A stretch of 64,000 nt of DNA. Origin: an uncultured Methanomicrobiales archaeon (lineage in GTDB: Archaea; Halobacteriota; Methanomicrobia; Methanomicrobiales; Methanospirillaceae). The translations under genes were made by a program, and so were the position numbers. The number at the start of each line of letters is the position of its first letter. Positions within the stretch are counted from its first letter, which is position 1. The stretch spans positions 62,001 through 126,000 of the forward strand of contig CAIYHQ010000050.1 in NCBI GenBank assembly GCA_903926075.1, in the 5' to 3' direction. Shown here piece after piece: positions 56,415-60,681 of this stretch. The notes below the pieces were generated by a model that worked only from the letters and a program-made list of their open reading frames with translations, did no database searches and was not told the DNA's origin.

Positions 56415-56771
56415 TTACTCTGCGGGGGGTTTCCCTTCAAGAGCAAGTTTAATCTGGCCTTGTAATTGCTCAAAACGTGACTGTAGCGCTTTTTCCTGTT
56501 TTTCAAGTGATTTTATCCTCAGGTCAAGTGTTTCAGCCTTATCAGAAAGGTCTTTAATCACATCATCGCGCTTTTTCTGGACCATAATAGTCCCGACACT
56601 CATAAATATAACCGTATCCTCATTTACAGGTTCTATCTCCTCAGTTGCCCGTCGTGTCTCTTTTGCTGCAATTTCATACTGGTTTTTCTGATGGAGGATG
56701 TTCTGAAGCTGTTGTTGTATCTGCTGAAGCATATTTATCTGGTTCTGAATTTTTGGAGGGATTGAGTTCAT
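56415..56771 (-). CDS. pfdB: Prefoldin subunit beta
   Basis: 118 residues, two long coiled-coil helices around a beta-hairpin (VIFMSVGTIMVQKK), the standard prefoldin beta layout. Holds unfolded proteins for the thermosome. Last gene of the minus-strand operon, overlapping pcc1 by four bases. Confidence 0.94.
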   Translation of the reverse strand: MNSIPPKIQNQINMLQQIQQQLQNILHQKNQYEIAAKETRRATEEIEPVNEDTVIFMSVGTIMVQKKRDDVIKDLSDKAETLDLRIKSLEKQEKALQSRFEQLQGQIKLALEGKPPAE

Positions 56772-57031
56772 AAAATGTTAGCTCCTGATTTCTGGTTTGT
56801 GTATTCAAATATTTCGTCTGCTACGCCTACAAGTCTCAACCACGTATTCAGTGAAGCCCGCAGTGCGTGTAGATCCTCTGCTGAAATTGTAAGTATAAGC
56901 GAATCTTTGTCATTCGAATTTATTTCTACAGATGAACGTGAATAGTCCTCCTGAGAAATGTCAGGAATGAGTGCCTGCATCAGGAGTGATGGGTTTGTGA
57001 GCCCAAACCTGAAGATGGCATAATTTCGCAT
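56768..57031 (-). CDS. pcc1: KEOPS complex subunit Pcc1
   Basis: 87 residues, small alpha/beta dimerisation subunit of the KEOPS complex that makes t6A37 in tRNA. The C-terminal segment LHALRASLNTWLRLV matches the family. Sits in its usual place between rpoP and pfdB. Confidence 0.85.
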   Translation of the reverse strand: MRNYAIFRFGLTNPSLLMQALIPDISQEDYSRSSVEINSNDKDSLILTISAEDLHALRASLNTWLRLVGVADEIFEYTNQKSGANIL

Positions 57032-57079
57032 AATTTTTTTCTTAAATAGTAAATTGTTATTTTTCCAGGGTGAATCTGA

Positions 57080-57217
57080 TCAACGTGCTTTGATCTCTTT
57101 TATTGCGGCTCCGCGTTCCTTGAAAAGAATCCGGTGTCCACAGAAAGGACAACGTACATTCACATCAATCTCAACTTTCTGTTTACAGCGGGCACATTTA
57201 TATGAAGACCCTGCCAT
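57080..57217 (-). CDS. rpoP: DNA-directed RNA polymerase subunit P
   Basis: 45 residues starting [11 protein letters not shown]. The zinc ribbon has CARC and CPFC, then the conserved [10 protein letters not shown] segment of the RPB12/RpoP family. Too short for normal ORF cut-offs. Five bases after rpl37ae. Confidence 0.94.
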
Positions 57218-57222
57218 AATCG

Positions 57223-57516
57223 TTACTCCCTTGTCTTTTCAATACTGCGCTCGATTGTACGCAGGGCTACCTTTAGAGCAGGTGTCTGGGGCTGGTAAGC
57301 TCCGCCGGCAAATTTAAATCCACACTTCCTACAGGCCCATATACCGGTACCTTCACGTTTTACAGCTTTTACTTCACAGCGGGGGCAGGTGTGATAAGCC
57401 CTGCTTATTCTCTCTGTTTCGGCTACTCTCTTTCTGATAAAACGGCCATATCTGCAACCAAATCGTCCAGATGAGCCCACAACTTTTCCTTTTGCCTTTT
57501 GGTATGATCGTGCCAT
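57223..57516 (-). CDS. rpl37ae: Ribosomal protein eL43 (L37Ae)
   Basis: 97 residues starting [12 protein letters not shown], with a C4 zinc ribbon (CPRC ... CRKC). ATG 57516 begins the family N-terminus; a longer frame to 57555 does not. Normally preceded by exosome genes; here SBDS lies 41 bases upstream. Confidence 0.94.
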
Positions 57517-57557
57517 AGTTACGCTCGATAAATGCCTTATAAAATCTGTAGTCAAGG

Positions 57558-58262
57558 CTAATATATTTGATCGAGAATCTTCACATCTGCCTCACCTTTT
57601 GTGATGCGGTTGAGAAGCTCGTAAAATTCACTTTGAGCGCCTGCAGGGATACGTACGACGCATATCCACGATCCATCATTCTGCCACTCATCGCGCTCCA
57701 TCGTAGCCGCGCCTGATATATCACTAAAAGCTTTTGCTGCGAGAAGTGGAGGGATCTTAACTGCAAGCCTGACTTCCTGAAACCTTATGGGTATTAATGG
57801 ACGAAGCGCTTTCATCGTCTCTTTGACGAGAACATCAACATTTTTAAATGGGTCAATATTCACCCTTGCCTCTTCCATTGCCATTTCAATTCGCTGTGGA
57901 GGATGAGGTAGTCCGGTTTGCGGATTTACAGCGTTTCTTGCTATATAACTGATAACTTTTCTTCTCTTCTCCTCTACTATTTGTCTCCGCTGTTCGGAAG
58001 TTAGGTGAATCTCTCCATCTTTTATAATTACTTTTGCTATTTCATCAAAATTTGTTGTCTTAAAGACCTTCAGCAGGTCTTCATCAGAAGACCTGCTTGC
58101 ATGTGAGGCACTTTCGAATACATGCAATGCTGCTACAGCGTCTTCTATCGTTATCTCTTCACCATGACGTATCAGGGCTGCTTTATCCGGGTCAACCAGA
58201 ACTTCGAACCGAAGTCCATGACGTTCAAGGCGTGCCACTACTGCATTATCAAGAGGGATCAT
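57558..58262 (-). CDS. SBDS-family ribosome maturation protein
   Basis: 234 residues, three-domain SBDS layout: N-terminal FYSH-like domain ([19 protein letters not shown] in part: [14 protein letters not shown]), helical middle (about 90-160) and a ferredoxin-like C-terminal domain. Eukaryotic SBDS releases eIF6 from the large subunit. It is next to psmA as in other archaea. Confidence 0.93.
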
Positions 58263-58279: not shown

Positions 58280-59005
58280 TTATGAACTCTCTATGTTCTC
58301 AACAAACTGTGCAACTTCTGATTTACTCATTTTTTTAAAGCTGGCGCTTGCTGTTTCAATAGATCCGATTTCAACTGTGTTAACATCAAATTTTCCTTCA
58401 GTAGCCTCATGCAGAGCTTTTAAACCGAGTGAAACTGACGAATCGAGGTCTGCTTCTTCATCGTACTTTTCTTCAAAGACTTTCATTACTGCAGGACGCC
58501 CGATACCTATCCCTGTGGCTTTATATTCAAGCAATGTTCCACTTGGGTCTGTTTCAAAAAGGCGTGCATAGCCATCACTCACCCCTGCAATGAGGAGAGC
58601 AGTGCCATAAGGACGTGCACCTCCAAACTGGGTGTATGTCTGCATGTGGTCACAAAGTTTCTTTGAGAGTACTTCAACATCGATCTTTTCATCGTATGTT
58701 ATTTTGTTTATCTGGCACTCAATTCTCGCTCTGTCAACTAAAGACCTTGCGTCTCCAACAAGACCTGATGACGCGACACCTATATGGTCATCAATTTTAA
58801 AAATTTTCTCAATTGATGTCGCTTCAAGAAGTCTCGAGCTGACTCGTTTATCAACAATAAGGATAACTCCGTCCCTGTATTTTATTCCAAGGGCTGTTGT
58901 CCCTCTCTTTACCGCTTCGCGTGCATATTCGACCTGATAGAGTCTTCCATCCGGACTGAATACAGTAATGGCGCGATCATATCCCATCTGGTATTGTGGT
59001 TGCAT
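58280..59005 (-). CDS. psmA: Proteasome subunit alpha
   Basis: 241 residues starting MQPQYQMGYDRAITVFSPDG. The N-terminal RAITVFSPDGRLYQVEYA motif is the alpha-subunit signature (gate and PAN docking). ATG 59005 is chosen; the GTG at 59017 is in the region giving the ribosome-binding site GGTGTGAT. The beta subunit gene is not in the window. Confidence 0.96.
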   Translation of the reverse strand: MQPQYQMGYDRAITVFSPDGRLYQVEYAREAVKRGTTALGIKYRDGVILIVDKRVSSRLLEATSIEKIFKIDDHIGVASSGLVGDARSLVDRARIECQINKITYDEKIDVEVLSKKLCDHMQTYTQFGGARPYGTALLIAGVSDGYARLFETDPSGTLLEYKATGIGIGRPAVMKVFEEKYDEEADLDSSVSLGLKALHEATEGKFDVNTVEIGSIETASASFKKMSKSEVAQFVENIESS

Positions 59006-59071
59006 TTTATCACACACCTTTTTTTTCTTATCTCTCGCACAATAGTTTAGTTTCAGTCAAAAAAATCCTTC

Positions 59072-59422
59072 TCATTGGTTCCTTCCATTTCGCTTCATGA
59101 AACGATCTTTAAGGCTTTTCATAGTTCCTGACGTTGCCAGAGGGCGTAATGCAATTCCTTGTCCGAAACCAGAGGTTACGGTGGCAGTAATCGCAAGAAG
59201 CATCTTCTCTTCTCCACGCCGGCACCTTATGATACAGTATTTGTCCTGCTTTATTATGAGTGAGGGGTTAACAAGCGAAAAACCATTATCTCCGATAAGC
59301 GAACGCCCGCGTTCAGCAATGGTCTGATAAATGTATTTTTTCTCCAAAGATGTGTCAGGGGGGTCTATTTCATACAGAATATAGCGGTAGTTCTCTCTTA
59401 AGGTAGGAGGCAGGGGTTTCAT
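59072..59422 (-). CDS. rnp2: RNase P protein component 2 (Pop5)
   Basis: 116 residues, RRM-like fold. The N-terminal PPTLRENYRYILYEI segment and CIIRCRRGEEKMLLAI strand are typical of Pop5. Overlaps rnp3 by four bases; the two proteins form a heterotetramer that activates the RNase P RNA catalytic domain. Confidence 0.92.
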   Translation of the reverse strand: MKPLPPTLRENYRYILYEIDPPDTSLEKKYIYQTIAERGRSLIGDNGFSLVNPSLIIKQDKYCIIRCRRGEEKMLLAITATVTSGFGQGIALRPLATSGTMKSLKDRFMKRNGRNQ

Positions 59423-60063
59423 ATTATTAACCTTACTGGTTCAGGCCTCTCCATTCTCCTTTTTATTGCAGAAAATGTCTCTTCCAGTTCATTTTCAGCG
59501 AGTCCGAAGAGTGAAGCAAGAGCACTAAATTCACGTGGAGAACGCATATCAATCGATATCTCAGCACTTGTAGATATTGATATTGGAAACCTGAAAATCC
59601 TTTGAAATTTTAATATTTCTCTATATCTTTTTAATGCATTTTGCCTCGCATGTTCTTCACCATGTATTATAGGGAAAAGGCTCAGGTCCAATATTATACC
59701 TTTTTTTGCAATGAGACGTGCGATAACTTCATCAAATGAATTTTTTGGAGCCCGGTGAATTCCATAAAGGATGTCTATACCAGGAAATGACGAAATACTT
59801 CTGTTGAATGAGTTTTCACCGGCATGTACAAGAATTAATTTGTCCTGTCTTTTAGATCTCTCAATCATTGACTCTGCTTTTGCAATTGATTCACTTTTAA
59901 CCAGTATTCCTTTAATAATGGTGAGTCCAAATGAGGTTTCAAAAGGGTTTTCAGTTACAAGGACAAGTGTCCTGAATTTTAATCTTTGTGCAGTTTTTAT
60001 AATTTTTGTAATTGCTTCTGTATCAATGGTCATATCCGGAATGCATATGTCTGTTGCATTCAT
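59419..60063 (-). CDS. rnp3: RNase P protein component 3 (Rpp30)
   Basis: 214 residues, TIM-barrel PHP-related fold, with the ILYGIHRAPKNSFDE and IILDLSLFPI segments of the Rpp30 family. Partner of Pop5. Confidence 0.92.
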   Translation of the reverse strand: MNATDICIPDMTIDTEAITKIIKTAQRLKFRTLVLVTENPFETSFGLTIIKGILVKSESIAKAESMIERSKRQDKLILVHAGENSFNRSISSFPGIDILYGIHRAPKNSFDEVIARLIAKKGIILDLSLFPIIHGEEHARQNALKRYREILKFQRIFRFPISISTSAEISIDMRSPREFSALASLFGLAENELEETFSAIKRRMERPEPVRLII

Positions 60064-60090: not shown

Positions 60091-60681
60091 TTATTTCCCT
60101 TGATTTGCATGAGAACGGATGCTTGGCCTGGTTTTTTCTGTACCTCGTCCCTTATGACGCATCCCGCGGCCCTTCATACCTGCGCTTGTTTTACCACGTT
60201 CCGCTCTTCCTCTATGAGTTGGATTTGAAACCCATGCAAGGTGAGGATCATTTTTAACGGACGGGTGATGCGGGTCAATTAGGATGACTTCGTACCACTT
60301 CTGTTTTCCGTCTTCTCCTACCCAGTAAGAGTTTAAGACTTCCATGTTCGGGAACCTCCTGGATGCTCTCTCTTCGGCAATTCGCTGAATACTTTTTCCC
60401 ATGGTAAGCCGATTAACACCCATTCGCTTGGAACGACGGGCCCGGACATAACGTGATGTCCTTCTCCCGCCACGCCTTACTTTTACTCTTGCAACCGCAA
60501 TCCCCTGCTTTGCCTTGTATCCTAGTGTTCTTGCCCTGTCAATTCTGGTTGGTCTGCGAATTCGCAGAACGGCAGGTTCTTTTCTCCACACCTGGAGTCT
60601 GTCCCACAGGAGCGCTTTTACTGGAGATTTTGCGGGGTTTTGCCATGCCTCCCGCACATATGAGTACATTGATCGTACCAT
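60091..60681 (-). CDS. rpl15e: Ribosomal protein eL15
   Basis: 196 residues, starts [13 protein letters not shown], highly basic, with the [21 protein letters not shown] segment (in part: [18 protein letters not shown]). First gene of the minus-strand information-processing operon, with a TATA-like TTTAAAGTGC/TATATAGG region just upstream. Confidence 0.96.

Follow-up and report, generated by a model that had tools for sequence, protein, structure and literature searches.

Loss of the exosome gene block from the proteasome/ribosome superoperon of Methanomicrobiales, and an RNB protein with a substituted catalytic residue

The exosome genes rrp4, rrp41 and rrp42 appear to have been lost as a single block from the proteasome/exosome/ribosome superoperon in the common ancestor of Methanomicrobiales, which would also have lost the Csl4 cap protein. 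The flanks would then have closed on a short seam, which those sampled descendants that carry both flanks retain, and the lineage of the uncultured archaeon studied here would have additionally lost a Brix-type gene two genes downstream. Such a cell would thus be left without an exosome, carrying RNase J, which the literature describes as acting 5'-3', together with a single RNB (RNase II/R-type) protein that probably either predates the exosome loss or was exchanged between lineages. In genomes devoid of the RNB protein, another enzyme, e.g., the RecJ3/4-aRNase J complex known from the literature, would have to act. We regard this account as a whole, from the ancestral loss of the block and Csl4 through the closed seam and the later Brix-type loss to an older or exchanged RNB protein, as very probable. 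The absence of the genes and the seam were observed by comparison of genomes, from which we infer the deletion and its placement in the ancestor of the order; the timing is read from patterns of presence and absence, not from a dated species tree.

Exosome loss in the genome under study is a known trait of its clade and not particular to it. As the earlier note on this DNA had stated for some methanogens and haloarchaea, the loss has already been published for Methanomicrobiales and Halobacteria (PMC8481954, PMC4227792). Those reports concern the same order and the same complex, but the accessible parts describe neither the seam, nor the Brix-type loss, nor the RNB variant presented below.

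Gene order around the seam

The window, i.e., the whole stretch of DNA that was analysed (64,000 nt), corresponds to bases 62001-126000 of contig C50. Its minus strand carries the series rpl15e, RNase P p30, Pop5, psmA, SBDS, rpl37ae, rpoP, pcc1 and pfdB, the identity of each being supported by Pfam (Table 1). The archaeal exosome superoperon was reportedly described by Koonin et al. in 2001; the window keeps its order psmA-SBDS-...-rpl37ae-rpoP-...-pcc1-pfdB, but lacks both rrp4-rrp41-rrp42 and the Brix-type gene. The spacing of 41 bases between SBDS and rpl37ae, from which the earlier note had deduced that exosome genes are missing, was borne out by the coordinates and by the Pfam matches on both flanks, and no gene lies inside the interval. 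Its statement that all flanking genes are present in order holds for the flanks confirmed by Pfam, but not for the Brix-type gene, which is absent between rpoP and pcc1.

Table 1. Features of the superoperon region, in positions of the window
Feature	Position	Strand	Basis or remark
pfdB (prefoldin beta)	56415..56771	-	Pfam Prefoldin_2
pcc1	56768..57031	-	Pfam Pcc1
Second seam, 48 nt	57032..57079		Position of the Brix-type gene in most relatives; locus comparison
rpoP (RNA polymerase subunit P)	57080..57217	-	Pfam Zn_ribbon_RPAB4 on 57080-57220; start codon by sequence reading
rpl37ae	57223..57516	-	Pfam Ribosomal_L37ae
Seam SBDS/rpl37ae, 41 nt	57517..57557		Site of rrp4-rrp41-rrp42 in exosome-bearing relatives
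TATA-like element AAATATATTAG, overlapping the SBDS stop codon	57558..57568	-	Possible rpl37ae promoter (putative)
SBDS protein gene (Sdo1)	57558..58262	-	Pfam SBDS_N, domain II and C
psmA (proteasome alpha)	58280..59017	-	Pfam Proteasome
RNase P subunit Pop5/Rpp14	59072..59422	-	Pfam
RNase P subunit p30	59419..60063	-	Pfam
rpl15e	60091..60681	-	Pfam L15e

A search with SBDS yielded 80 named loci. We treated 47 of these (L029-L075) as Methanomicrobiales, either by title or, where the title gave Euryarchaeota only, by their place in the ranking. Except for L067, which ends after SBDS, all of them carry both flanks, and none of these 46 loci matched Rrp4, Rrp41 or Rrp42. The comparison across the order that the earlier note had asked for hence found the exosome block absent from every two-flank locus. 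The gap between SBDS and rpl37ae measures 40-62 nt in 45 of the 46 loci and 241 nt in the remaining one (L074); in 10 further genomes of the order it is 43-72 nt. As an outgroup we used 33 loci (L076-L108) assigned to Methanosarcinales, Methanotrichaceae or Methanocellales by title or rank. In 31 of them the first of the searched genes to follow SBDS is rrp4, and in 27 rrp4, rrp41 and rrp42 were all matched. Among the four rrp4-positive but incomplete loci, L092 and L106 end inside the block, and L083 and L097 gave no match for rrp41. The two loci without rrp4 are L103, which stops after SBDS, and L102, in which no searched downstream gene was found in the available stretch. Both Methanocella-like loci carry rrp4 and rrp41 in the stretch available.

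Exosome genes elsewhere in the genome and in the order

RNase_PH, the domain of Rrp41 and Rrp42, was not matched in the genome of the window, nor in any of the 150 Methanomicrobiales genomes searched, with 12 of 14 controls being positive; matches were obtained in 220 of 392 genomes of the phylum, all 220 outside the order. Haloferax volcanii and Methanocaldococcus jannaschii were not among the RNase_PH-positive controls, though both were positive for RNase J, which fits the literature. ECR1_N, the N-terminal domain of Rrp4 and Csl4, was likewise undetected in the 150 genomes including that of the window, and was found in the Sulfolobus acidocaldarius and Methanosarcina acetivorans controls; the absence of Csl4 is based on this one short domain model, which it has in common with Rrp4.

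The genome of the window (3.14 Mb) is 96.94% complete in 134 contigs, and a stray exosome gene in an assembly gap would therefore be possible if this genome were taken alone. Nevertheless, the seam is contiguous sequence, and the exosome-negative genomes of the order, in which neither RNase_PH nor ECR1_N was found, include single-contig ones. Relocation of the exosome genes, or their concealment in a gap, was rejected on these order-wide searches and appears highly improbable; the loss of the block proposed by the earlier note is the reading that they support.

Families outside the order that were positive for RNB and negative for the exosome are taken here to be haloarchaea, judging by the controls, among which Haloferax was positive for RNB. 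If a single exosome loss was common to Methanomicrobiales and haloarchaea, the absence of the exosome from the former and from the RNB-positive, RNase_PH-negative genomes assigned to the latter would be accounted for at once, and two further observations agree with this: the DnaG proteins of both groups cluster (PMC4227792), and a single clade of the RNB proteins of both groups was not rejected (see below). The same paper states that DnaG is retained in archaea, and its DnaG tree, the legend of which names Methanospirillum, Methanocorpusculum, Methanoplanus and Methanosphaerula, separates exosome-less from exosome-containing Methanomicrobia. On the other hand, the nine genomes assigned to haloarchaea gave no match to L37ae or the exosome in the 1,500 bases examined after SBDS, unlike the closed seam of Methanomicrobiales, the RNB proteins of the two groups are only ~28% identical, and two losses were counted in PMC8481954. 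Thus, one shared loss seems rather unlikely to us. Opposite-strand ORFs come after SBDS in L144 and L145, two of the nine loci in question (L144-L152).

A second loss between rpoP and pcc1

In 29 of the 43 named Methanomicrobiales-like loci that contain both rpoP and pcc1, the two are separated by a short gene. It comprises 132-144 codons, its product starting like MTxVTTSRKP, and we presume it to be of Brix type, a label taken from the gene order of the archaeal superoperon. The Pfam Brix model was discarded as a test for this gene, as none of the controls was positive, and a profile built from 14 copies out of the loci was used in its place. This profile detected the gene in 115 of the 150 Methanomicrobiales genomes; those without it include the genome of the window and, within its family, every genome sampled from genera g2, g3 and g4. 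Consistent with the search, the gap of 48 nt between rpoP and pcc1 in the window holds no Brix-type gene. The lineage of the window has therefore undergone a second loss, as found for its own genome and for the sample of g2, g3 and g4, which the earlier note had overlooked. Related Methanoregula-like loci with short gaps between rpoP and pcc1 are likewise without the Brix-type gene.

A candidate promoter in the seam

Of 32 Methanomicrobiales junctions, 23 contain a TATA-like hexamer starting 45-54 nt upstream of the rpl37ae start, both the hexamer and its position window having been picked after inspection of the 47 junctions from which these 32, the window included, were dereplicated by removal of near-identical ones. 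Shuffled junctions gave a mean of 2.2 and a maximum of 7 such hexamers, against the 23 observed. The hexamer is near background ahead of six other genes at this locus, and at the rpl37ae starts of exosome-bearing genomes it was found in none of 10 dereplicated junctions (28 before dereplication). The rpl37ae gene is preceded by a G-rich stretch at positions -9 to -12; the column statistics of the junctions exclude L074 with its long gap. In the 10 further genomes, two of whose junctions are identical to named ones and two near copies of each other, the hexamer was in place in 3, against 0.67 expected by shuffling, and it was absent from the three genomes of genus g21 among them. An exact TATA motif throughout the order was dropped on this result. 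We hold with moderate confidence that the seam may provide a promoter for rpl37ae in part of the order.

An RNB protein with an altered active site

The genome of the window encodes one RNB protein of 488 amino acids, outside the window (match C65:11517-12509; the gene also appears as L027:4371-5837). Pfam places the RNB domain at residues 50-380 (E 1.2e-79) and a C-terminal S1 domain, PF18614, at 428-486. Only 49 residues precede the RNB domain, and Pfam matches down to an E-value of 0.1 included neither of the two N-terminal cold-shock domains expected of an active RNase II/R exoribonuclease. Against TIGR02063, the NCBIfam equivalog model for RNase R, the protein scored 258.3 bits, below the curated cut-off of 597.85. 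Of the 150 exosome-less Methanomicrobiales genomes, 108 gave an RNB match (90 of 109 good-quality ones) and the remaining 42 gave none (19 of 109). The genomes without a match include all 24 of genus g21, which we take to be Methanocorpusculum and in which RNase_PH was not found either (0/24), 12 of these genomes being at least 90% complete; the three genomes of genus g22 were also negative. The two phylum-wide searches overlap in 385 genomes, of which 13 carry RNB together with RNase_PH. One relative assembled as a single contig shows its RNB gene as two adjacent matches (G328:C1:225157-226153), owing to a frameshift or a sequencing error. A search for RNB in viral contigs gave no match.

In the phylogeny, the RNB proteins of Methanomicrobiales fall into a single clade (support 100/100) with those of two Methanocella-like genomes (G009 and G019) and of four genomes of family f22. 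We take family f14 to be Methanocella and genus g73 to be Methanosarcina. Mean identity among the Methanomicrobiales RNB proteins is 61%, and 50-51% to the Methanocella-like and f22 relatives; mean values to haloarchaeal, Methanosarcina and bacterial proteins are 28%, 25% and 28%, respectively. As the Methanocella-like and f22 genomes retain the exosome, the RNB protein either predates exosome loss or moved between lineages, and we consider that one of the two is probably the case. A clade uniting methanogen and haloarchaeal RNB proteins to the exclusion of bacterial ones was absent from the best tree; nevertheless, the constraint was not rejected (p-AU 0.321), so that the AU test does not support treating the two as demonstrated separate acquisitions. 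A second RNB tree omitted Alteromonas because of its long branch and did not include L223 and L226.

The clade deviates from canonical RNB proteins in its active site. We examined 59 of its proteins, 53 from Methanomicrobiales (out of the 108 RNB-positive genomes) and six from exosome-bearing relatives. All 59, the protein of the genome under study included, carry the motif DxxxxxDxDQ, in which the fourth catalytic Asp is replaced by Gln and the first three are retained; none shows the canonical DxxxxxDxDD. The comparison set of 23 proteins (nine haloarchaeal, four Methanosarcina and 10 bacterial) has DxDD throughout. Three further positions distinguish the clade, being invariant in its 59 members: Ala 362 (Ser in 23/23 of the comparison proteins), Asn 364 (Ile in 21/23) and Val 277 (His in 22/23). 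That the Gln is unique to methanogens was rejected, since two of 17 bacterial RNB proteins examined (10 + 7), those of a Streptomyces and a Thiodictyon, share DxDQ. These two join the methanogen clade weakly (81/41), and the C-terminal S1 family of the methanogen proteins is present in the Streptomyces protein and absent in that of Thiodictyon.

Two readings of this protein have to be weighed. In the classical one, it would be an active 3'-5' exonuclease of RNase R type that took the place of the exosome, as has been said of Haloferax; exosome-less organisms are described as using RNase R (PMC2943090). In favour of such a replacement are (i) the wide occurrence of RNB in the exosome-less order, (ii) the small number of genomes in the phylum sample (22/385) with neither RNB nor RNase_PH, (iii) the invariance of the Gln, which implies that it is under constraint, and (iv) the existence of bacterial RNB proteins with DxDQ. 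Moreover, Dss1 carries Glu in place of the second Asp, indicating that one substitution is tolerated. Nevertheless, the substituted residue is catalytic, and RNB homologs without such residues are presumed to be pseudonucleases (PMC8097288). RNB was also not found in the 42 genomes described above, including the entire sample of g21, is present in exosome-bearing relatives too, and Haloferax RNase R itself was reported to be inactive at high salt (PMC10470531). We therefore hold replacement by an active enzyme to be plausible but somewhat doubtful.

Alternatively, the protein may be an RNA-binding pseudonuclease, and the RecJ3/4-aRNase J complex may perform 3'-5' decay. The DxDQ motif would fit this, and according to PMC10470531 the parts of the complex co-occur in exosome-less archaea, namely haloarchaea and certain methanogens. 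The pseudonucleases of the RNase II family, Ssd1 (PMC8097288) and Zam (PMC9145284), similarly have altered catalytic acidic residues. In contrast to them, the methanogen protein is altered at the fourth Asp only, with an invariant Gln there and the other three Asp kept in all 59 cases, which speaks against a dead nuclease. This second reading is, in our view, a tentative possibility. The Gln could be the signature of an ancient subfamily that uses its own chemistry, or else of a binding protein.

Candidates for 3' decay

The earlier note held that, if the genome has no exosome elsewhere, RNA 3' decay must depend on another enzyme, with RNase R and RNase J types as examples, and both suggestions proved weak. 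In the case of RNase R, the likeness to haloarchaea lies in having an RNB-domain protein in an exosome-less archaeon; the haloarchaeal proteins have DxDD where those of Methanomicrobiales have DxDQ, and identity between the two ranges from 25 to 31% over the Methanomicrobiales entries. The Gln in place of the fourth Asp, the 42 genomes in which RNB was not found and this low identity leave it unproven that RNase R replaced the exosome. As for RNase J, 141 of the 150 Methanomicrobiales genomes scored above the cut-off of the model; with a looser E-value threshold all 150 were positive, but so was E. coli, and the looser search is hence not specific. Since archaeal RNase J degrades RNA in the 5'-3' direction according to PMC10221803, it is no direct stand-in for 3' decay, although the direction is less strict in PMC10470531, where Haloferax RNase J showed no strict 5'-3' preference under the conditions of that study. 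The same paper reports that the RecJ3/4-aRNase J complex of Haloferax volcanii acts mainly as a 3'-5' exonuclease. An RNase D-type exonuclease (PF01612) was also considered as a stand-in and dropped, no match having been obtained in 24 genomes, with eight of 14 controls positive. Altogether, it is not safe to assume a simple takeover by RNase R or J.

Implications for RNA degradation in Methanomicrobiales

It is attractive to speculate that Methanomicrobiales have no canonical 3'-5' exoribonuclease at all, that the DxDQ protein is possibly an RNA-binding pseudonuclease dropped by genera like Methanocorpusculum, that bulk 3' decay is the work of an unrecognised enzyme or of a complex resembling RecJ3/4-aRNase J, and that the seam became a new promoter splitting the superoperon in two; taken jointly, these propositions are unlikely to hold. 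Neither DxDQ in a methanogen RNB protein nor the lack of both enzymes in Methanocorpusculum was noticed in the titles and abstract openings covered by our literature searches. Labelling the protein "RNase R" would presuppose an activity for which its active site offers no guarantee, and the DxDQ clade is thus a clear target for enzyme assays. The seam itself is of modest interest, the greater question being how RNA is degraded from the 3' end in this order. One phylum offers a natural series of genomes with the exosome only, with exosome and RNB, with RNB only, and with neither, and this series could reveal whether archaea can do without a processive 3'-5' exoribonuclease.
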